From Acidobacteriota bacterium (GTDB lineage: Bacteria > Acidobacteriota > Terriglobia > Acidiferrales > UBA7541): a stretch of 37,175 nt of DNA. The position numbers and the translations under genes are program-made. Position 1 is the first letter of the stretch; each line of letters opens with the position of its first letter. This document shows positions 3,937 to 17,248 of this stretch, in pieces. Location: assembly GCA_003224175.1 (NCBI GenBank), contig QHYQ01000300.1, forward strand, positions 1 through 37,175, read 5' to 3'. The notes under the pieces are model-generated. The model was not told the DNA's origin, made no database searches, and saw nothing but the letters and a program-made list of their open reading frames with translations.

Positions 3937-4848
3937 ATGCTCCATCGCTTCACCATCTTGATTATCGTACTGGTGGCAGCCCCGGTCTTTTCATCCTTGG
4001 CGTTTGCTCAGAACGAGCGGCCGCGACAGCCAGCGGCGGCGCAGGGCCAGAAAGCTGCGGCGCCCAAAGAACAGAAGTCAGTCGCTGCTCCGCGCCATGA
4101 TATTTCCGGAACTTGGGCGCCGGCCAATGGCCCTTCGGACGGAATCCAGGCCAATGGCGTGAAGGCCATGCCGAATGACGGCAAGCCAGAACATCAGTTG
4201 CCTTACACTCCTTACGGACAACAAGTGTACAAGTCCCATCACGCGCTGGAAGGAGCTGACGCTGTGCTGCCCGGTTTCTTCAACGATCCCCGGGACAAGT
4301 GCGAGCCGCTGGGGTTCCCGCGAATGAATTTTTATAACCTCAGGGAGACACAGATCCTGCAGAACGAATACAAGATCGTGATGCTTTACGAGTATGCAAC
4401 GACGTGGCGGGTTATCTGGACAGACGGCCGGCCGCTTCCGAAGTTCGTCGACGGAGGCGTACAGATTGGCAGTGAAGTTAAGGAGCCGCGATATTACGGA
4501 TACTCAGTGGGAACATGGGTGGACGATACGACCCTCGTAGTGCAGACGACGGGAATGATGGGAGAAGAGAGGGTCTGGCTGGATACCGCGGGGCGGGCGA
4601 TCAGCGACCAATTGCGCGTGGAGGAACGATTCCATCGCGTGGACCACGACCGTTTGGAGTGGACCGTGACGATCGACGACCCCAAGATATATACGAAACC
4701 CTGGGTGGCCATGAACAAATTTCCTTTCCAATTGGAGGATCCTCACCGGGATGTCATGGAGCAGTACTGCTCACCCTCAGAGATGGAACGGTATAATAAG
4801 CTATTTGGTAATCCCTCCAGCGAGGAAGGGCACGGGCCGCAGCGATAG
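3937..4848 (+). CDS. Secreted 'HDLSG.W' family protein of unknown function, copy 1
   Basis: The ATG at 3937 follows GGAAGAGG and starts a clear signal peptide (MLHRFTILIIVLVAAPVFSS LAFA), giving 303 residues; the longer in-frame start at 3871 lacks both. The mature protein has HDISGTWAPA near residue 65, CEPLGFPRM in the middle, RVIWTDGRPLP, then YYGYSVGTWVDDTTLVVQT, ERFHRVDHDRLEW, TIDDPKIYTKPW and a late Cys (EQYCSPSEM). The same landmarks recur in the genes at 31187, 32928 and 34600, so this is one paralogous family. I know it as a common 'hypothetical protein' of Acidobacteriota but know of no demonstrated function. The two conserved Cys (CxxxGxP and near the C-terminus) could form a disulfide in the periplasm. 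It is followed after 20 bases by a DUF6152 gene, probably co-transcribed. Confidence 0.85.
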   Translation: MLHRFTILIIVLVAAPVFSSLAFAQNERPRQPAAAQGQKAAAPKEQKSVAAPRHDISGTWAPANGPSDGIQANGVKAMPNDGKPEHQLPYTPYGQQVYKSHHALEGADAVLPGFFNDPRDKCEPLGFPRMNFYNLRETQILQNEYKIVMLYEYATTWRVIWTDGRPLPKFVDGGVQIGSEVKEPRYYGYSVGTWVDDTTLVVQTTGMMGEERVWLDTAGRAISDQLRVEERFHRVDHDRLEWTVTIDDPKIYTKPWVAMNKFPFQLEDPHRDVMEQYCSPSEMERYNKLFGNPSSEEGHGPQR

Positions 4849-4868
4849 CTGAACCGGAGGCAATAACG

Positions 4869-5267
4869 ATGCGAAGCAAAGTCATCCCGGCAATGGTTCT
4901 GGCGCTTGGCATGGTGAATTTTTCGGGCGCTCTGTTTGCGCACCACGGGACCGCGGCGTTCGATACCGACAAAAAGGTTACTCTGAAAGGAACCGTCACG
5001 GAATGGTTCTGGTCGAATCCCCATTGCCTCCTGCAGTTCGACGTCAAAGGTGAAGACGGGAAAGTGGTCCATTGGATTGGAGAGACTCAAAATCCGGTGA
5101 CCATGACCGACGGTGGCTGGAGCAAGAGCTCATTCAAGGTTGGCGATGAAGTCACGGTGGCTTTGTTCCCGGTGAAGAATGGCTTGCCGCTCGGGCGCAT
5201 CATTACAGTCCTGCTCCCGAATGGGAAGACGTTAGACGCCATGGGGGGAACCCGCACTTATAAATGA
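4869..5267 (+). CDS. DUF6152 family secreted protein, copy 1
   Basis: The product is 132 residues from ATG 4869, with GGAGG 8-12 bases upstream. The signal peptide ends GALFA, so cleavage after Ala24 would leave His25-His26 as the first mature residues (HHGTAAFD). A small beta-rich domain follows: VTLKGTVTEWFWSNPHC, then HWIGETQNP, GWSKSSFKVGDEVTVAL and GKTLD near the end. The layout (A-HH, a G-T-V strand, NPH, KxGDxVTV, DGK/NGK) is that of the DUF6152 family, whose function is not established to my knowledge. The exposed His-His and the His/Cys of NPHC are reminiscent of periplasmic metal sites; that is inference. It is the second gene of a pair with the protein at 3937. Confidence 0.85.
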   Translation: MRSKVIPAMVLALGMVNFSGALFAHHGTAAFDTDKKVTLKGTVTEWFWSNPHCLLQFDVKGEDGKVVHWIGETQNPVTMTDGGWSKSSFKVGDEVTVALFPVKNGLPLGRIITVLLPNGKTLDAMGGTRTYK

Positions 5268-5671
5268 TCCGCGACCATCGACGCGATGCGAGTCTGAAGT
5301 CCAGGGTCACGATAGAGCGTTAAATTAGACTGGAGCCAACGGGAACCTGTCAGGCTCTTTGCGCAACCGCAGTTCATTACCCTCTCATTGTGAGTCAGAA
5401 TCGCTTCCAGCAATCGCCTTTTCGAGCGCGGTTCATCAGGCAGGGATGCAATCTCACGGATGTCGCCTGATGGTGAATTTGGCCATGAGCGTGTTTATTT
5501 TGCCCACACTATATGTTTGGTCCGCTCGGGAGGACGATAAGCTCCCAGAACGGGAGGAATCTTTCGAAACCTAAGCCGGGCAGCCATCCGGTTCGGTGAC
5601 CTGGTCGAAAGCCGCCGAAATCGAAGATTAGCTCAAGCGATTTAGTTGCGCAGGTTGGTATTTCGATTCCG
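5268..5671. other. 404-base convergent intergenic region
   Basis: This lies between the end of the DUF6152 gene and the end of the reverse-strand ABC permease. A 71-codon forward frame at 5359-5574 has no ribosome site or recognisable similarity. I see no convincing terminator hairpin, repeat or RNA gene. Confidence 0.5.
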
Positions 5672-8857: not shown

Positions 8858-10102
8858 ATGCGGACACTGAGCAGACGGGTGTGGTTGCTGCTTGGGTTCG
8901 CAATGGTTCTGGTCGTCTTTTTGTTGTATCTGAATAGCCGGCGCCCATCGGCTCGGGTGGCGGTGGTACAGGCTTCGCGCCAGACTTTTCGCTCGTCCAT
9001 TACCAGCAATGGCAAAGTGGAGCCGATCACGCCCTATTCGTTGCGCGCCAAGTTCGATAGCTTCGTCGACCGCATCATTGCAGCAGAAGGGAAGAACGTG
9101 AAGAAAGGCGACGTTCTGGTGACGCTGAACGACCGCGATATCCGGGCGCAGCTGGATCAAGCGCGCGCACAACTGGCTTCGCAGGAAGATGATCTCCGCG
9201 CCGCACGAGCCGGGGGGCGTGCCGACCAGTCCGCGAAGCTCGGCGCCGACTTGAGGTCCGCGGAGGCGGAACGGAATCTGTTAGAACGACAGCAGGAAAC
9301 GCTTACGAAGCTGGCCGCGCAAAATGCCGCGACGGCCCAAGAACTGGAGAGGAATCGCACTGCGCTCGAGCGCGCCGAGGCCGCGCTCGATCAGGCGCGC
9401 AAGGCCAAGCAAGAGTTCGAGCATCAAGTTGGCTTCGATCAAGGCCGGCTCGATCTGCTGGTGAAGCACTCCAAAGCGCTGGTGAATGATCTGGAAGATA
9501 AGGCGGATTCGACGCGCGTAGTGGCGCCGGCAAGCGGAACTCTCTATTCCTTCCCGGTGCATGCGGGAGATTTCGTACACACCGGTGACTTGCTGGCTGT
9601 AGTTGCGGATCTGCACGAGCTTAGAGTACGGGCCTATATCGATGAGCCGGAACTTGGGCAGTTAAAACCGGGTCAAACGGTCGTAGTCACCTGGGATGCC
9701 TTGCCCGGGCGCACATGGACTGGGAAGACGGAGATCCTGCCGCGGCAGGTGGTCGCACTCGGCACGCGCAACGTCGGCGAACTACTCTGTACGATTGCCA
9801 ACCAGGGGATGGAGTTGATTCCCAACACAACCGTCGACGTGCGCATCGAAATTAACGAACTAGCCGGCGCCCTGGTTGTGCCGCGGGGAGCAGTTCAAAT
9901 CGACGGCGCGCATCGCTACGTTTACCGCCTCGATGGCGGAAGGTTGCATCGCACGGAGATCCGCGTGGGCCTCTCGAACGCCACGCAATTCGAGGTGCTC
10001 TCGGGCATCAATGAGGGGGATACACTGGCGCTCCCCGGCGATACAACCTTGCGCAACAATATGGCGGTGCGCGTGGCGATTCCCGAATCCGAGTCGGAAT
10101 GA
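8858..10102 (+). CDS. HlyD/MacA-type efflux periplasmic adaptor (membrane fusion protein)
   Basis: The product is 414 residues with an N-terminal membrane anchor (VWLLLGFAMVLVVFLLYL). Then comes the usual adaptor layout: a lipoyl half (NGKVEPITPYSLRAKFDSFV and GKNVKKGDVLVTLND), a long alpha-helical coiled coil at about 95-215 rich in Ala, Gln and Arg, the returning lipoyl half (TRVVAPASGTLYSFPVHAGD), a beta barrel (LRVRAYIDEPELGQLKPGQ) and a membrane-proximal domain to the end. Such proteins bridge an inner-membrane pump and a TolC duct. It leads a set with a TPR gene (4-base overlap), a MacB-type permease and a TolC gene. A TACAAT box at 8800-8805 may be its -10 element, without a clear -35. 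Confidence 0.9.
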   Translation: MRTLSRRVWLLLGFAMVLVVFLLYLNSRRPSARVAVVQASRQTFRSSITSNGKVEPITPYSLRAKFDSFVDRIIAAEGKNVKKGDVLVTLNDRDIRAQLDQARAQLASQEDDLRAARAGGRADQSAKLGADLRSAEAERNLLERQQETLTKLAAQNAATAQELERNRTALERAEAALDQARKAKQEFEHQVGFDQGRLDLLVKHSKALVNDLEDKADSTRVVAPASGTLYSFPVHAGDFVHTGDLLAVVADLHELRVRAYIDEPELGQLKPGQTVVVTWDALPGRTWTGKTEILPRQVVALGTRNVGELLCTIANQGMELIPNTTVDVRIEINELAGALVVPRGAVQIDGAHRYVYRLDGGRLHRTEIRVGLSNATQFEVLSGINEGDTLALPGDTTLRNNMAVRVAIPESESE

Positions 10103-11118
10103 AGCAGACGACCCTTTCTCTCGCTTATCTCTTCCTTGGTGCGCTTTCAGCCGGATTGCTGATGACCGCCCCGCTGGGTGCGGGCGCGGCGGTGCGTGAA
10201 CTGCCAGCCGACATCGAGCGGCTGTACAACGGAGGCCTCTATCGCCAGGCAGCGGAATCGCTGAATGCCGCTATTCAGCGCGAGCCGCAAGAATCTTCGC
10301 TGCATTATTGGCTGGGCCGTTGTTTCTATGAGCTGCGCGATTATAACCGCGCAATCTCCAGCCTGGAACGGGCCATCGCTCTTGAACCCGATCGCTCCGA
10401 TTATCACGACTGGCTCGGAAAGTCCTATGGCCGCAAGGCCGAGGAAACAAACCGATTCAGCGCCTTTTCCTCAATATCCCTGGCCCACAAGACGCATCGC
10501 GAATTCGAGGCCGCCGTGCGGTTGGACGCGAACAACCTGGAAGCGCAACGAGACCTGATCCGCTATCTGCTGAACGCGCCAGGTATCGTCGGTGGGAGCG
10601 AAGGAGGAGCGCAACAGCGCGTACGCGCCCTCGGCGCGCTGGATCCCATAGAAGGAGCGCTGGCGCAGGCCGAGCTCTTCGCTTCCCGCAAGAAATTCGA
10701 TGCGGCCAGCCAGGAGTACCGGAAAGTTTTGGAAATGATGCCGGATCGCATCGGCGTGTATTTCGAAATTGCCGAGTATTATCGAGATCACGGCGATGCT
10801 GCGCGAATGTCGGAGGCCGTGGAGACCGGGGCGCCACTGGCGCCATCCGATCATCGTCTGGATTATTATCGTGGCATCGCGTTGATATTAGGGAATCAGG
10901 ATCCCACCGAAGCGGAGAGAGAGCTTCGCCACTATCTCGACAGCGTGCCCGACAATGCTAATGTCCCCTCCCATTCGACCGCCCACGAATGGCTGGGCAC
11001 CCTTTACGAAAGAGAAGGACAATTGGACAAGGCGGTGCAGGAATTTCAGGCCGCTCTGATACTTGATCCTCGCAATAAAGAGGCCGGAGAGTCATTGAAA
11101 GCACTGAAGAGGAGATAG
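10099..11118 (+). CDS. Secreted TPR protein in the efflux operon
   Basis: The start ATG overlaps the adaptor stop as ATGA (10099-10102), so the two are translationally coupled. The 339-residue product has a signal peptide (LAYLFLGALSAGLLMTAPLGAGA) and about seven TPR-like helical pairs, for example SSLHYWLGRCFYELRDYNRA, LDYYRGIALILG and AHEWLGTLYEREGQLDKAVQ. It should be periplasmic. Its position between the adaptor and the permease, where an ABC ATPase is often found in MacAB-like operons, suggests a role in assembling the exporter or binding its cargo. That role is inference; TPR proteins of this kind have no fixed function. Confidence 0.85.
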   Translation: MKQTTLSLAYLFLGALSAGLLMTAPLGAGAAVRELPADIERLYNGGLYRQAAESLNAAIQREPQESSLHYWLGRCFYELRDYNRAISSLERAIALEPDRSDYHDWLGKSYGRKAEETNRFSAFSSISLAHKTHREFEAAVRLDANNLEAQRDLIRYLLNAPGIVGGSEGGAQQRVRALGALDPIEGALAQAELFASRKKFDAASQEYRKVLEMMPDRIGVYFEIAEYYRDHGDAARMSEAVETGAPLAPSDHRLDYYRGIALILGNQDPTEAERELRHYLDSVPDNANVPSHSTAHEWLGTLYEREGQLDKAVQEFQAALILDPRNKEAGESLKALKRR

Positions 11119-11228
11119 TAGCGGCCCGGCGCTCGATTCCCGGTGGCGTTACGACAGAGTAGCAGACCCGTCGCAAGGCCCTGCATTTCTGCTAGAGTCA
11201 TTATTGATTTGCTGCCGAAGGTGGTCGG

Positions 11229-12177
11229 ATGCTGCCCCGGGAGACTTGGCGCGTTGCGGTTGACGCGCTGTGGTCGAATAAACTGCGCGCGATTTTGACC
11301 ACGCTGGGCGTGGTCATAGGGAGTGCCTGCATTGTGCTGGTGGTGACGGTAGCGGTTACGGGGAGGCGCTACGATCCTCAAGGGCCGGTTTCTGGATGCC
11401 ATCGACGAGCAGTCTCGCAGTAAGGTCTGCTTGATCACCGATCAACTGGCAAGCCTTGTTTTTCCAAACGAAGACCCGATTGGAAAAAGCCTGCGCGTCG
11501 GTCAGATTAGCTTTACGGTTGTGGGTGTTTTCCGGGAGCGCGTGGGAACGTTTGGCCTTTCCGAAATACAGCGCTACACGGTCCTGGTGCCCTTCTCTCT
11601 CATGCTGTACTACACCGGGGATGACGCTGTGGAAATTCTGTACGCCCAAGCGGACGGCCCCGAAGATGTGGTCCTGGTCACCAGCCAGGTGGGAGAACTG
11701 CTTCGTAGCCGCCATTCGCGGACGGCTACGTACGTGGTGCAGAATTTGAGCGCGATTCTGGATGCAGCGCGGCGCATTGGCACGGCGCTGACGGTGGTGT
11801 TGCTGGTGATCGGGTTCATCGCGCTGATGGTGAGCGGCATCGGCATCATGAACATCATGCTGGTGACCGTGACGGAGCGCACGCGGGAGATCGGAATTCG
11901 CAAGGCCATCGGCGCGCGCCGCCAAGAGATTCTTTTTCAATTTTTGATCGAGGCGCTCCTGATGAGCGGCATTGGGTCCCTCATGGGAGTTCTGATCGCG
12001 CTGGCTATCCCGGTGATGGTGCGCCCGCTGTTGCCGGGCAATCTGCGTGTTCCCGTGCCGTGGTTGTCCGTGGTGGTGGCTTTCGTGGTGGCTTGCTCGA
12101 CGGGCCTGTTCTTCGGCTATCTGCCCGCCGATAAAGCGGCTCGGTTACAACCTACAGAGTCGCTTCGCTATGAGTAA
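11229..12177 (+). pseudogene. MacB-type ABC permease with internal deletion and frameshift
   Basis: The first 48 codons from ATG 11229 give a good MacB permease N-terminus: WRVAVDALWSNKLRAILTTL and GVVIGSACIVLVVTVAVTG, up to GRRY near 11372. The same frame then turns into unrelated residues and stops at 11423. A different frame resumes at once with TILKGRFLDAIDEQSRSKVC and continues through the intact second half to 12177. That half has the periplasmic end, three membrane segments, GIGIMNIMLVTVTERTREIG and IRKAIGARR, typical of MacB/FtsX permeases. Full-length relatives have roughly 90-100 residues of periplasmic domain between these points, from memory. A segment is therefore missing and the frame is changed at about 11370-11376. 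The exporter would be non-functional if the sequence is right. Confidence 0.75.
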
Positions 12178-12201
12178 TCGATATCAGGAGGCGTAGGCGC
12201 G

Positions 12202-13575
12202 ATGCAGCGAGAAAACAACTGTTTCCACCAAGAGCACCACAGCCGGAAAAGGAAGGTGGGGCTCTCCGCCCGAACCAAGACAGCGTTTATTGTGCTGCTC
12301 GTTTGTGCCGCCGGCGCCTGCCCGGGAATGGCGCAAACGGCGGGAGAGCTTGCGCCGCTGCGCTTCACGTTAAAGGAGGCGGTGACGACGTCTCTGCAAA
12401 AAAGCCGCGAGATCTCGCTCGCCCGGCTGCAATATGAGACTTCGCGCCAGGAGGCGGGTCTGACGCGTTCCCAGTTTCTTCCCAACCTGTACACCGGTTC
12501 GGGAGTGGCCTACACCAGCGGTTTCCCACTACTGGCCGGCGGCGGCGCTCCCGCTCTCTTCAACCTCACCTACAATCAGGAACTGTTCAACCTCCCCGCA
12601 CGAGGGGACGTGCGCGCTGAAGAGCAAAAGGCGGAGCAGCGGCGATTGACAATGGATGGTGTTCGCGACAGCGTGATTCAACGAACGGTCTCCGCATATT
12701 TGCAACTGGCCAAGGTTCGGCGCCAGCTCGAGCTTTTGCGGAGCGAGCGCCAGAGCGCGCAAAAGATCCTGGACTACACGCGCCAGCGAATGCAGGCGGG
12801 TTATGAATTGCCCATCGAAGTGACCCGCGCCCAATTGACGGCCGCCCAGGTGGAACAGCGACTGGCACAACTGGAAGATCAGCAGGAGACCGCGGCCGAC
12901 CAGCTTCGACTCCTGCTCGCTCTGGAACCGGACCAGCCCATCGAAGTGACCGCCGAGAATATCCCGCCGGCTGCCGATCAAACGATCAGCAATTTGGTGG
13001 CAGAGGCGCTGCGCAATAACCCCGAAGTTAAAGAGGCGGAATCGGAGCGCACGGCCAGCGAGGAGCGTTTGAAGGGCGAGCGTGGAGGATACTGGCCCAC
13101 CATCGGACTGATCGGGCAATATAATCTCCTGGGGAAGTTCAACAACTACGACCAATTCTTCAACAAGTTTCAACGCAATAACTTCATCGCCGGAATCGAC
13201 GTCAAGATTCCCATTTTCGCCTCGCATACGGGCGCGGCGATATCTTTCGCGCGAGCCAATTTGACGGCTTCGCAAATGCAGGTGGAGAACAAGCGAGCGC
13301 AGGTCTCGCTGGAAGTGCGTCACAAGGCACGCCAAGCGCGGGAAATGGATATGAATCGAGAGGTAGCGCGCCTGGAACTGGAATTGGCGCAACAGAATCT
13401 GCAAGTACTGCAATCACAGTTTCAACAGGGGCGCGCCAGTATTCGCGATCTGGAAGGCGGGCAGCTCGACGAAAACGAGAAGTGGCTTGCCTTTCTCGAT
13501 GCAGAGTACGCGCACCAGCAAGCTGAGCTTGAGCTGCTGCGCACCACGGGGCAATTGGCGCAAGCCTTCCAGTAA
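12202..13575 (+). CDS. TolC family outer-membrane efflux protein
   Basis: The product is 457 residues, the usual TolC-family size. The ATG at 12202 follows AGGAGG. A long N-terminus precedes a hydrophobic signal (AFIVLLVCAAGACPGMAQT). The body shows the two-repeat TolC plan: FTLKEAVTTSLQKSREISLA opens repeat 1 and ISNLVAEALRNNPEVKEAES opens repeat 2, each followed by long helices rich in Gln, Arg, Ala and Glu. Between them lie hydrophobic strands (YTGSGVAYTSGFPLLAGGG; YWPTIGLIGQYNLLGKFNNY). It would form the trimeric outer-membrane duct for the adaptor at 8858. It follows the broken permease after 24 bases and probably ends the operon at a hairpin downstream. Confidence 0.9.
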   Translation: MQRENNCFHQEHHSRKRKVGLSARTKTAFIVLLVCAAGACPGMAQTAGELAPLRFTLKEAVTTSLQKSREISLARLQYETSRQEAGLTRSQFLPNLYTGSGVAYTSGFPLLAGGGAPALFNLTYNQELFNLPARGDVRAEEQKAEQRRLTMDGVRDSVIQRTVSAYLQLAKVRRQLELLRSERQSAQKILDYTRQRMQAGYELPIEVTRAQLTAAQVEQRLAQLEDQQETAADQLRLLLALEPDQPIEVTAENIPPAADQTISNLVAEALRNNPEVKEAESERTASEERLKGERGGYWPTIGLIGQYNLLGKFNNYDQFFNKFQRNNFIAGIDVKIPIFASHTGAAISFARANLTASQMQVENKRAQVSLEVRHKARQAREMDMNREVARLELELAQQNLQVLQSQFQQGRASIRDLEGGQLDENEKWLAFLDAEYAHQQAELELLRTTGQLAQAFQ

Positions 13576-13732: not shown

Positions 13733-15193
13733 GTGAAGCATACCCTTTTTCTCAACCCTCCCAGCTATGAGGGATTTGATGGAGGCGCCGGGTCACGCTA
13801 TCAGGCACGGCGGGAGATCCGTTCGTTCTGGTATCCCACGTGGCTCGCGCAGCCGGCGGCTATGGTTCCCGGCAGCCGGCTTATTGATGCTCCTCCCGAC
13901 GGGCTGACCGTCGAACAGGTGGCCCCGCTGGCCCGAGATTATGAGCTGGCCGTGCTGCACACCAGCACGCCCTCGTTCGGAAATGACGCGCGTTTCGCCG
14001 AGCGGCTGAAGGAGGAAAATCCGCGAATCGAAGTCGGCATGGTCGGGGCGCACGTGGGCGTTCTGCCGCTGCAATCGCTCAACGGCGCGCCGGCCGTGGA
14101 TTGGGTGGCGCTAGGTGAATTCGACTATACCTGCGCGGAGATCGCCGCCGGAAAACCGCTCCATGAGGTGCAGGGCATAGCCTATCGTGACCGCGGGGAG
14201 ATTCGTATCACTCCTGCAAGGCCCACCATCGAGAACATGGATGCTTTGCCGAATGTGGTCGAGGTATACAAGCGAGATCTAACGATCGAGAACTACTTCA
14301 TTGGCTACCTGCAGCACCCCTATGTCTCGTTGTATACGGGCCGGGGTTGCCGTTCGAAGTGCACGTTCTGCCTCTGGCCACAAACGCTGGGCGGGCACCG
14401 CTATCGCGTGCGCAGCGCCGATAGCGTGGAAGCGGAAATGGCCGCGGCGAAGAAATATTTCCCGCAGGTGCGGGAATTTTTCTTCGACGATGATACGTTC
14501 ACCGATGATTTGCCGCGCGCCGAGGAGATTGCGCGCCGTTTGGGTCGGCTGGGCATAACCTGGTCGTGTAATGCCAAAGCCAATGTCCCGCGGAGAACGC
14601 TGGAAATTCTGCGCGCCAACGGGCTGCGGCTGCTTCTGGTGGGCTACGAATCCGGCAATCAGCAAATTCTGAACAACATCAAGAAGGGCACTCGCATCGA
14701 TATCGCGCGCGAATTCACGCGGAATTGCAGAGAATTGGGGATCACCATTCACGGCACGTTTATCCTGGGCTTGCCCGGTGAAACGCCGGAGACTATTCGT
14801 GAGACGATCCGCTTTGCGTGCGAGATCGAGCCGGAAACCATTCAGGTTTCGCTGGCCGCCCCTTATCCCGGCACGGAGCTTTATCGCCAAGCGCAGGAAC
14901 AAGGCTGGCTGCAGATTCAGACCGGCGAACTGGTAGATACGCACGGCGTGCAAGTCGCCGCGTTGAGCTTCCCCACGCTGTCTTCCACGCTAATCTTCGA
15001 TTCGGTGGAGGAGTTTTATCGGAAGTTCTATTTCCGCCCGCGCAAGATTTTCTCGCTGGTGGGCGGAATGGTCCGCAGTCCCGAAGTGATGCGGCGGCGC
15101 TTGCGTGAGGGAGTGGAGTTCTTCCGTTTTCTGCATGAACGCAAGAAGACGGCGCAACCTTCTCCCGCCGCAATCAGCACCGCGGCAAGCTAA
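13733..15193 (+). CDS. hpnJ: Hopanoid biosynthesis B12-binding radical SAM protein HpnJ
   Basis: The 486-residue product starts at GTG 13733 with GGAAAGGA about 10 bases upstream. It opens MKHTLFLNPPSYEGFDGGAG, typical of HpnJ. Residues 1-160 form the Rossmann-like cobalamin-binding domain (LAVLHTSTPSFGNDARFAE; VGMVGAHVGVLP). The radical SAM core follows with the [4Fe-4S] ligands Cys206, Cys210 and Cys213 in GCRSKCTFCLWPQ, then FFFDDDTFTDD, LLLVGYESGNQQILNNIKKG and HGTFILGLPGETPETI. HpnJ acts on the sugar of glucosaminyl bacteriohopanetetrol to make the cyclitol ether (established in Burkholderia genetics). The hpnI glycosyltransferase lies two genes downstream on the same strand, which fits. 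HpnK, the expected deacetylase between the two steps, is not in the window. Confidence 0.9.
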   Translation: MKHTLFLNPPSYEGFDGGAGSRYQARREIRSFWYPTWLAQPAAMVPGSRLIDAPPDGLTVEQVAPLARDYELAVLHTSTPSFGNDARFAERLKEENPRIEVGMVGAHVGVLPLQSLNGAPAVDWVALGEFDYTCAEIAAGKPLHEVQGIAYRDRGEIRITPARPTIENMDALPNVVEVYKRDLTIENYFIGYLQHPYVSLYTGRGCRSKCTFCLWPQTLGGHRYRVRSADSVEAEMAAAKKYFPQVREFFFDDDTFTDDLPRAEEIARRLGRLGITWSCNAKANVPRRTLEILRANGLRLLLVGYESGNQQILNNIKKGTRIDIAREFTRNCRELGITIHGTFILGLPGETPETIRETIRFACEIEPETIQVSLAAPYPGTELYRQAQEQGWLQIQTGELVDTHGVQVAALSFPTLSSTLIFDSVEEFYRKFYFRPRKIFSLVGGMVRSPEVMRRRLREGVEFFRFLHERKKTAQPSPAAISTAAS

Positions 15194-15225: not shown

Positions 15226-15672
15226 ATGGAACAGACCATTTCTTCGACCAGAACGTTGAAGGCGAAGACATACATTCTCCTGTTTTTGATGATCGCGCTG
15301 GGTTCGGTCGGGAACACGATCCTGGACAAGGGCATGAAAAGCCTGGGGCCGATCGATTTTTCGACTCGCTCCGCAGTTTGGCAAGGAGTCTTTCATACGT
15401 TCACAAACGGCACGATCTGGCTGGGCATTTGCTGCATGTTGCTTTTTATGGTGTGCCATATGCTGGTGCTCTCCTGGGCGGACTACAGCTTTGTCATGCT
15501 ATTTTCGGCGATCACTTACGCGCTGGTTCCGCTGCTCGGATATATCTGGCTCGGAGAGTACGTGCCGGTCGCGCGCAGAATTGGTATTGTCCTGATCGTG
15601 TTCGGAGTCTTTTTGGTCAGCCGCACGCCGCCGCGAACCACTCCACCCATTTCGGACCGCTCCGTAAGCTGA
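15226..15672 (+). CDS. DMT/EamA-like half-transporter between hpnJ and hpnI
   Basis: The product has 148 residues and about four membrane helices: YILLFLMIALGSVGNTILDK, IWLGICCMLLFMVCHMLVL, YSFVMLFSAITYALVPLLG and IGIVLIVFGVFLVS. The turn YIWLGEYVPVARRIG between helices 3 and 4 is the usual (L)xE...(R)xxG feature of drug/metabolite transporter half units. It resembles in plan the N-terminal part of the next protein, where YPVSFVVPATSLAYV and FLLRERLSAIRWAGVA align. Two such halves commonly work as a heterodimer, as ArnE and ArnF do when they flip aminoarabinose-undecaprenyl phosphate. By position I infer a partner for the fused half at 15683. The substrate is unproven. The ribosome site before ATG 15226 is weak. 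Confidence 0.75.
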   Translation: MEQTISSTRTLKAKTYILLFLMIALGSVGNTILDKGMKSLGPIDFSTRSAVWQGVFHTFTNGTIWLGICCMLLFMVCHMLVLSWADYSFVMLFSAITYALVPLLGYIWLGEYVPVARRIGIVLIVFGVFLVSRTPPRTTPPISDRSVS

Positions 15673-15682
15673 TCGGAATTCA

Positions 15683-17248
15683 ATGCGCACAGCTTTGATC
15701 CTCAGCTTCGTGGTATTGACGGGGACCTGCGGCGAGATCAGCCTCACGCACGCCATGAAACAGATCGGTGAGGTGCAGCATTTTTCGCCGGCGGCGATTT
15801 CGAGGGTGCTGCTCCATTCGTTGCGGCAAGTGTGGTTGTGGATCGCCGTAGGATTAATGGCCGTATCCTTTTACGCTTTCCTGACCATGCTTTCGTGGTA
15901 TCCGGTCAGCTTTGTGGTGCCAGCAACCTCGCTGGCTTATGTGACAGGCGCGCTGGGCGCAAAGTTCCTGCTGCGGGAACGTCTCAGCGCCATACGCTGG
16001 GCCGGCGTGGCTTGCATTTCCCTAGGCGTGGCGCTGGCTTGGGCAGATCCGATGCCTTCACTGCCGCACTTGAGGAATTTATACATTTTATTGCGGGAAG
16101 TTGTCTTCGTGGCTGCGCTGGCGCCCTTGGCCTTTTATCTTTTCAGCGGGTGGGCGGCATGGCGCTTTTTTCGACACGCCCGCGCCCAGGCGCTTGGGCA
16201 TTCCACTGATTTCATGCCGCCAGTTAGCATTCTCAAGCCTTTGCACGGTCTGGACCGCGGCGCTTACGAAAATTTCGCGAGTTTTTGCCGTCAAAAATAT
16301 CCGACGTATGAAATTCTTTTCGCCGTCCGCAACGAGAACGATCCTGCCGTTCCGGTTGTGCGCCTTTTGATTCGCGATTTTCCCCGGATCCCCATCCGCC
16401 TGCTGGTGGACCAGGACAGGAAAGGCACAAACGACAAAGTGGGCAAGCTTTGCCTGATGGCGCAAGAGGCCAGCTACCCCTTGCTGGTCATCACGGATAG
16501 CGATGTGCGGGTCGCGCCCGATTATTTGCGCAGCGTTGCTGACATTTTTCGCGATCCGCGCGTTGGTGCGGTGACGGCGCTCTATCGCGCAATGGAGGCG
16601 CCCTCCTTCGGTGCGGAGATGGACACGATGGGTTCACTCTCATTTTCCGGCTCGGCGTTAATGGCCCGGGAGCTCGAGGGCCTCAAATTCACCATGGGCT
16701 CGACAGCGGCGATAACGCGCGAACGACTTGCGGAGATCGGAGGATTCGCTCCGCTGCTGGATATGCATTCGGATGATTACGAATTGGGCCGGCGAATCGC
16801 ACAAAAGGGATATCGCGTAGAGCTTGTCCCAGAGCCGGTAGACATCGAGTTTCCCTCGGAAAGCCTGCACGATTATCTTCGGCACGAACTGCGCTGGCTC
16901 ATTGGCTTGCGGCACATCCGGCCCGGCGGCCACTTCGGTTTGTTGATGACTCAAGGGCTCGCGTGGACGGCCGCAGCGGCCGGCTTGGCGTCTTCGTGGA
17001 CAGCGAGTGCCGCATGGGTATTGGCATACCTGATCATTCGATTGCTCAGCGGTTATGTGATTGGGGTGTGGGGTCTACGCGATCCGGTCGTGCGGCGCAA
17101 ACTATGGCTGCTTCCGCTACATGATCTCTTTTGGTTTTTCCTGTGGCTGGTGAGTTTCTCCGTCAATCGCATCGAATGGCGAGGGCTGGTTTTTACTCTC
17201 GAAAAAGGCCGCATGATTCCCGTGGAATCGCGGCCACAGGGCGCATGA
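15683..17248 (+). CDS. hpnI: Fusion of a DMT half-transporter to hopanoid glycosyltransferase HpnI
   Basis: This 521-residue frame has two parts. Residues 1-122 are a four-helix DMT/EamA-like unit (RTALILSFVVLTGTCGEISL, then YPVSFVVPATSLAYVTGALG). From about 130 it is a complete HpnI/ceramide-glucosyltransferase-like GT: a membrane helix, PPVSILKPLHGLDRGAYENF, the metal-binding DSD at 272-274 in VITDSDVRVAPDY, MHSDDYELGRRI at 361-371 and HELRW at 401-405, then C-terminal membrane helices. HpnI adds N-acetylglucosamine to bacteriohopanetetrol. An internal ATG at 16052 lies at the domain border, but no good ribosome site precedes it, so I favour a true fusion. It begins 10 bases after the separate half-transporter gene. 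Confidence 0.85.
   Translation: MRTALILSFVVLTGTCGEISLTHAMKQIGEVQHFSPAAISRVLLHSLRQVWLWIAVGLMAVSFYAFLTMLSWYPVSFVVPATSLAYVTGALGAKFLLRERLSAIRWAGVACISLGVALAWADPMPSLPHLRNLYILLREVVFVAALAPLAFYLFSGWAAWRFFRHARAQALGHSTDFMPPVSILKPLHGLDRGAYENFASFCRQKYPTYEILFAVRNENDPAVPVVRLLIRDFPRIPIRLLVDQDRKGTNDKVGKLCLMAQEASYPLLVITDSDVRVAPDYLRSVADIFRDPRVGAVTALYRAMEAPSFGAEMDTMGSLSFSGSALMARELEGLKFTMGSTAAITRERLAEIGGFAPLLDMHSDDYELGRRIAQKGYRVELVPEPVDIEFPSESLHDYLRHELRWLIGLRHIRPGGHFGLLMTQGLAWTAAAAGLASSWTASAAWVLAYLIIRLLSGYVIGVWGLRDPVVRRKLWLLPLHDLFWFFLWLVSFSVNRIEWRGLVFTLEKGRMIPVESRPQGA

Follow-up and report, generated by a model that had tools for sequence, protein, structure and literature searches.

The window, which is the whole stretch of DNA analysed (37,175 nucleotides), is one contig of a soil acidobacterial genome estimated to be 85% complete, and its closest relatives with names are 'Acidobacteria bacterium gp2' MAGs. 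On the plus strand, hpnJ is followed after 32 bases by an open reading frame (ORF) of 148 amino acids (h1), and after 10 further bases by an ORF of 521 amino acids, in which a second unit (h2) precedes the glycosyltransferase HpnI, predicted to glycosylate hopanoids, the sterol-like lipids of bacteria. The features are given below with their coordinates in the window, and the basis of each assignment is shown in parentheses.

13733..15193, plus strand: hpnJ, radical SAM protein of the BHT cyclitol ether pathway and first gene of the conserved trio (TIGR03471)
15226..15672, plus strand: h1, separate four-TM half-transporter, ArnF-like, 148 amino acids, predicted to be N-in/C-in (ArnF match, AF2 model, charge bias of +2)
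15313..15315, plus strand: Asn30 of h1, at the SMR central Glu position, E14 of EmrE (alignment column 17)
15683..17248, plus strand: h2-HpnI fusion protein, 521 amino acids (domain matches, unbroken frame, dN/dS, AF2 model)
15683..16045, plus strand: h2, N-terminal four-TM half-transporter, ArnE-like, residues 1-121, predicted to be N-out/C-out (ArnE match, charge bias of -3, four AF2 helices)
15734..15736, plus strand: Glu18 of h2, equivalent to E14 of EmrE (alignment of 74 pairs)
16046..16099, plus strand: linker and beginning of HpnI helix 1, residues 122-139 (low pLDDT, dN/dS of 0.21)
16100..17212, plus strand: HpnI glycosyltransferase domain of the GT21 type with DSD, SDD, and HxxRW motifs (TIGR03472, Glyco_transf_21)

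The HpnJ protein encoded upstream of h1 matched TIGR03471 strongly (781 bits; cut-off, 577.6) and had a CxxxCxxC motif (CRSKCTFC) at residue 206. The HpnI assignment (residues 140-510 of the 521-residue ORF) passed TIGR03472 only marginally, by 7 bits (317 bits; cut-off, 310); the domain also matched Glyco_transf_21 (133 bits), and the GT21-type catalytic motifs were found at residues 272 (DSD), 363 (SDD), and 401 (HELRW). The solved sequence nearest to the 521-residue protein was a ceramide glucosyltransferase. No hpnK was found within the hpn cluster of the window, and the best HpnK-like protein of the genome, on contig C490, scored 213 bits, under the cut-off of 232.6. This YdjC protein (C490, positions 4671-5540; L163) has an unrelated GT2 gene as its neighbour and no hpn genes around it. 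Since the sole HpnK-like protein lies off the contig and scores below the cut-off, the final hopanoid of this genome remains uncertain. Note that hpnK was not found in the genomes of cultured SD1 and SD3 acidobacteria, and that the pathway there was called incomplete (PMC5462960).

The fusion of h2 to HpnI is real, and chance or an assembly slip is excluded. When 61 relatives were compared, the fused frame was open in ten genomes of the window's family (identity of 52-89% for the copies outside the window), and it was also open in the distant loci L134 and L165. Stops interrupted the same block in other relatives, in which h2 and HpnI are separate genes; the gene maps of the relatives read hpnJ-h1-h2-hpnI, with h2 and hpnI either fused or, in close relatives, about 6 to 60 bases apart. 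Purifying selection was detected in h2 (dN/dS of 0.08-0.12; 0.08-0.10 against two copies of the same genus), in the linker (0.21 in these two closest comparisons), and in HpnI (0.13-0.19; 0.15-0.19 against the same two copies). When the entire ORF was modelled with AlphaFold2 (mean pLDDT, 93.2; pTM, 0.79), residues 1-120 formed four helices and were joined by a flexible linker (121-127) to a long helix of HpnI (128-170), after which came the catalytic domain and helices at the C-terminus; pLDDT fell to about 63 at residues 121-130 of the linker region. The PDB fold matches of this model were membrane GT2 enzymes. An artefact or a frameshift as the source of the fusion was ruled out by the unbroken frames, the purifying selection, and the AlphaFold2 model.

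The two units h1 and h2 are homologous half-transporters of the DMT/SMR type, as judged from sequence and models, although their transport activity is itself inferred. The sequence of h1 was aligned with residues 1-122 of the fusion protein over 122 residues without gaps (24% identity; E = 1e-10). Matches to EamA (PF00892) were below the threshold (24.5 bits for h1 and 22.7 bits for h2; cut-off, 28.2) and restricted to the TM3-TM4 region. The top NCBIfam matches, both below the cut-off, were ArnF for h1 (E = 4e-6) and ArnE for h2 (E = 1e-6); the ArnE and ArnF equivalog models (NF011625 and NF002816) gave 27.2 and 28.6 bits and did not reach their cut-offs of 99 and 92. Conversely, the ArnE of E. 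coli was matched by the family profiles of both h1 and h2 (36-38 bits). The AF2 model of h1, for which three plasmid-derived rows were left out whole from the input, had four helices (pLDDT, 78), and its 12 best PDB fold matches were all SMR proteins (EmrE/Gdx-Clo) with TM scores of up to 0.71 on the target; these matches were statistically weak (Foldseek E = 0.04-1.3). A single-sequence search of solved structures with h1 gave no match, and the h1 and h2 profiles gave only weak DMT matches in the PDB (NIPA2, the CMP-sialic acid transporter and SLC35B1, of the SLC35 type, and EmrE). Both units are closer to the SMR/ArnEF half-transporters, which have four helices and form dimers, than to an EamA protein with its ten helices.

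With 74 aligned pairs, h1 and h2 were found to be two distinct subfamilies, and the h2 sequences formed one clade (75 of 75; support, 99). The SMR central position was acidic in every h2 (Glu in 60 and Asp in 14) and was mostly Asn (37) or Asp (35) in h1, and a Glu in the TM3-TM4 region was invariant in both. Asn is common at the central Glu position in the lipid-type SMRs, in which the proton-binding Glu is often missing (PMC9574504). The column of the TM3 tyrosine switch (column 76) had Tyr or Phe in h1 and Phe or Leu in h2, with an uncertain register relative to EmrE. The original prediction, made before these analyses, had described an HpnI protein with an extra N-terminal four-helix unit of the DMT/EamA type and a separate unit of the same type lying 10 bases upstream. 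The ORFs and spacing held when the coordinates were re-examined, the extra unit held by the frames, the selection, and the AlphaFold2 model, and the nature of the units held with a refinement towards the SMR/ArnEF type. Of the two observations that it had named as able to refute it, a lack of DMT homology of the half units did not occur, and separate synthesis of HpnI from ATG 16052 gained no support from the sequence (ribosome site and conservation were checked).

The charge bias was calculated for the 74 aligned pairs with the Arg/Lys formula of a review on SMR proteins (PMC9574504), in which opposite biases are the recognition sign for heterodimers. The bias of h2 was negative in 74 of 74 pairs (mean, -5.4), and that of h1 was mildly positive (mean, +1.2; above that of h2 in 74 of 74, and above zero in 48); the values for the window pair were +2 (h1) and -3 (h2). 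Because the two units are biased in opposite senses in all 74 pairs, an antiparallel pair is proposed: the pattern is likely to be the mark of a fixed heterodimer, with h2 N-out/C-out and h1 closer to N-in/C-in, where both dimer formation and topology are inferred. Helix 1 of HpnI is followed by a basic stretch, WRFFRHAR (residue 160), so this helix should run from outside to inside and place the catalytic domain in the cytosol. By the same charge rules, only a C-out unit could be joined to helix 1 of HpnI without an extra helix; h2 would be the fused half because its outside C-terminus leads into that helix. This reasoning predicted the right half in every fusion found.

On the tree of the HpnI domain, fused proteins appeared in three places: in the window clade together with L075; in L077; and in L134 (Blastocatellia) together with L165. 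A single origin of the fusion was rejected (p = 9e-5; three changes on the tree), and an origin of L077 shared with the window clade was borderline rejected (p = 0.048). Thus, two origins are firm and three are likely. Since the same half was repeatedly fused to the same enzyme, we regard this as strong evidence for functional coupling of h2 and HpnI, the coupling itself being inferred.

Among the relatives, the pair was mostly encoded by two separate genes, and a half unit was found within 8 kb of 69 of 97 HpnI-type genes (loci from named contigs). Outside the window's class, the complete cyclitol-ether operon hpnJ-hpnK-h1-h2-hpnI was found in families f12, f34, and f79 (L212, L213, L214, L217, and L218; the L217 operon has an additional small gene, for an M15 peptidase, that separates h2 from hpnI). 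HpnK exceeded its cut-off of 232.6 in all five (288-306 bits), HpnI exceeded 310 (361-392 bits), and HpnJ exceeded 577.6 in L212 and L213 (749-760 bits), the only two scanned. We consider these operons the best evidence for the function of the pair. In Acidobacteriaceae (L200-L203), hpnJ, h1, and h2 were together and hpnI was elsewhere. Co-occurrence was counted in 396 acidobacterial genomes with thresholds chosen after seeing the data (E < 1e-50 for HpnI and E < 1e-20 for the h2 profile): both were present in 66 genomes, HpnI only in 30, the half unit only in 4, and neither in 296. Outside the window's class, the corresponding numbers were 20, 30, 4, and 296 (Fisher p = 2e-15), and the association was retained at the family level (p = 4e-5); note that these tests ignore kinship. 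HpnI does not strictly require the pair, which was missing in 30 of the 96 HpnI-bearing acidobacterial genomes and was not found at any of the hpnI loci examined in Proteobacteria and Cyanobacteria.

Several other arrangements were observed. In the four genomes with the pair and without a strong HpnI (L204, L205, L206, and L207), no glycosyltransferase was present among the neighbours checked. L210 has one half unit on its own, beside a gene for a DegT/DnrJ-type aminotransferase (the type to which ArnB belongs), with no HpnI nearby. Tandem HpnI-type genes occur in L084, L102, L103, L123, and L146, and the tree places the two copies of the acidobacterial loci on separate branches. Many relatives (L083, L084, L087, L094, L099, L101-L103, L105, L107, and L123) carry a pyridoxal-dependent decarboxylase-like gene that separates hpnJ from the TolC-like gene and is not present in the window.

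Separate from the HpnI of the window, the tree also contained a fully supported clade of HpnI-like enzymes (38 rows) from Terriglobales and Bryobacterales. The genes of this clade were accompanied by those for an SqdB-like enzyme (UDP-sulfoquinovose synthase; 486 bits, cut-off 575) and an ArnT-like GT-C protein, and in many cases also by the h1/h2 pair. All of these genes were seen with an HpnI-like GT21 gene in L113, L115, L121, L126, L131, L140, and L215. Such clusters may point to a pathway of the Arn type, not yet described, that makes a different glycolipid. Confinement of the pair to the hopanoid pathway was rejected on these clusters. The pair may be best regarded as the putative flippase partner of HpnI-type glycosyltransferases in general, with a glycosylated hopanoid as the inferred substrate in the hpnJ/hpnK contexts; whether all members handle a hopanoid is uncertain, given that this sister clade has the pair and that the cluster of the window has no hpnK.

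The genes immediately before hpnJ in the window (8858-13575, also plus strand) encode an HlyD-like adaptor, a TPR protein, a MacB-like permease, and a TolC-like protein, and homologs occupied the corresponding position in about 10-20 related loci, the number varying with the gene. The permease of the window (11118-12177) lacked 253 bases, out of frame, compared with L069 of the same genus; either the gene is broken or the assembly is faulty here. HpnN (TIGR03480) was not found over the cut-off in 61 genomes (the window genome and 60 relatives). The HlyD/MacB-like/TolC set might take over the lipid from the proposed flippase, but this is only a lead, since the permease of the window has lost these bases.

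The reading that we prefer, at somewhat better than even odds, is that the pair is a flippase which resembles ArnE/ArnF, is coupled to HpnI, and brings glycosylated hopanoid to the outer leaflet; the direction, the coupling, and the substrate are inferred. In this model, h1 and h2 would pair antiparallel as an SMR-type heterodimer like ArnF/ArnE, with h2 covalently joined to HpnI. On the cytosolic side of the inner membrane, HpnI would add a sugar to the hopanoid (judging by homology, GlcNAc to bacteriohopanetetrol), and the dimer, held at the entry helix of HpnI, would pass the product to the periplasmic leaflet, from which it could reach the outer membrane in a lineage without detected HpnN. 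The fusion, the homology of h1 and h2, the SMR-like fold of h1, the opposite charge bias, the linkage to hpnJ, hpnK, and hpnI, and the repeated fusion rest on sequence and models and are shown. Dimer formation, topology, transport and its direction, the coupling to glycosylation, and the exact lipid are inferred. The analogy to ArnE/ArnF, which the original prediction had drawn, held in the family matches, the EmrE/Gdx-Clo fold, the charge bias (74 of 74), and the operon context. Its proposed search for the fusion in other hpn clusters was positive (h2 and HpnI were fused at least twice, and the unfused pair lies between hpnK and hpnI elsewhere). Its suggestion that hopanoid is moved in step with glycosylation by HpnI was supported, with transport, direction, and coupling still inferred, and its remark that it was not aware of a described hopanoid flippase of this type agreed with the literature searched.

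Four other explanations were considered. First, the pair may flip another lipid-linked sugar (e.g., a polyprenyl-phosphate sugar) made, in place of a hopanoid glycoside, by the HpnI-like GT21 enzyme of this clade, with the proximity of hpnJ reflecting shared regulation of membrane lipids. This remains possible: the SqdB-like and ArnT-like genes accompany the pair in Terriglobales and Bryobacterales loci in an Arn-type logic, a single half unit lies by the DegT aminotransferase in L210, and the HpnI score of the window is marginal. However, the SqdB/ArnT-like clade is separate from the HpnI of the window, only one small gene lies between the fusion gene and a strong hpnJ, the unfused relatives keep the order hpnJ-h1-h2-hpnI, five operons combine the pair with HpnI and HpnK over the cut-off and an adjacent HpnJ (over the cut-off in the two scanned), and no ArnT-like gene lies beside the cluster of the window. 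Second, h1 and h2 may have lost transport and now serve HpnI as a scaffold or chaperone in the membrane, for its positioning or regulation. Lipid-type SMRs often lack the proton-binding Glu (PMC9574504), h1 has Asn or Asp there, and being fused to an enzyme would also suit a unit that is structural only. We nevertheless consider this unlikely, given that the central residue of h2 is acidic in 74 of 74, the TM3-TM4 Glu is invariant in both units, h2 is under strong purifying selection, and two complementary halves, needless for a scaffold, have been retained in all lineages where the pair occurs. Third, the pair may be an unrelated exporter of drugs or small molecules that stands beside the hpn genes by chance; SMR/DMT proteins often export drugs or metabolites, and an efflux-like HlyD/permease/TolC set lies upstream, but the repeated fusion to HpnI, the linkage to hpnI, hpnJ, and hpnK across several families, and the phylum-wide co-occurrence make this very improbable. 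Fourth, an error of annotation or assembly as the source of the fusion, with HpnI made separately from ATG 16052, near which the stand-alone HpnI genes of many relatives start, is all but excluded by the frame open in ten family genomes and in L134 and L165, by purifying selection across the junction, and by the absence of a Shine-Dalgarno-like stretch before 16052, where there is also no break in conservation.

A bolder form of the preferred flippase reading is a dedicated synthesis-and-flip machine for glycosylated hopanoids, in which one half of an ArnE/ArnF-like SMR heterodimer is built into the glycosyltransferase, in lineages without HpnN, with a possible handover to the HlyD/MacB-like/TolC set; we are slightly more inclined to doubt this form than to accept it. 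If true, it would be a first on two counts: an SMR subunit fused in nature to a glycosyltransferase, and a flippase for glycosylated hopanoids. In the literature searched, the crossing of the inner membrane by sugar-headed hopanoids was unexplained (HpnN is described for traffic from the inner to the outer membrane), and no hopanoid flippase or EamA-type hopanoid transporter was described; an EamA-like domain in a Leptospirillum hopanoid cluster was left without comment (PMC12654047). If the flippase reading is right, h1 and h2 are a concrete two-gene candidate for this step, testable by deletion. The fusion would also be a natural case in which geometry fixes the topology of one SMR subunit, and the locus provides a lead on glycosylated hopanoids in Acidobacteria, where the pathway was called incomplete. 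Glycosylated hopanoids serve as biomarkers, and knowledge of their exporters helps to read that record.

Among the known systems, HpnN, the RND transporter of hopanoids to the outer membrane, would share the proposed purpose of hopanoid transport but is an unrelated protein that acts between the inner and outer membranes, and the pair would act earlier. GtrA-type flippases and GtrA/DPMS fusions of three-component glycosylation (for GtcA, PMC7389260) resemble the present system in that a small four-helix flippase is partnered with or fused to a membrane glycosyltransferase, and differ in the flippase family, the polyprenyl-phosphate carrier, and the absence of a hopanoid link. The HpnI system (BHT N-acetylglucosaminyltransferase with HpnJ and HpnK) shares the GT21-type domain, the neighbouring hpnJ, and, in the relatives, hpnK, whereas the fusion protein of the window has an extra N-terminal half-transporter and its cluster has no hpnK. 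EmrE/Gdx-Clo and the paired SMRs (EbrAB and MdtIJ) are similar in the predicted fold of h1, the core of about 100-120 residues, the adjacent genes with opposite charge biases, and the central acidic residue of h2, and are different in the weak sequence similarity, the lipid-biosynthesis context, and the asymmetric central residues (Asn/Asp in h1 and Glu/Asp in h2). According to the SMR review, no internally fused (inverted-repeat) SMR protein has been found, and a fusion of an SMR protein with an enzyme is not mentioned in its relevant sections (PMC9574504). The fusion of h2 to a glycosyltransferase in several lineages, not described for SMR proteins in those sections, is also one difference from ArnE/ArnF, the undecaprenyl-phosphate-aminoarabinose flippase of the SMR lipid subtype. 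ArnE/ArnF is likewise made of two four-helix subunits whose genes are neighbours in a lipid-sugar operon, and with the same charge count the ArnE of E. coli is strongly negative, as is h2, and ArnF is positive, as is h1. Unlike ArnE/ArnF, h1 and h2 are linked to HpnI, HpnJ, and HpnK and not to ArnB/C/A/D/T (there is no arn operon), and h2 keeps an acidic central residue.
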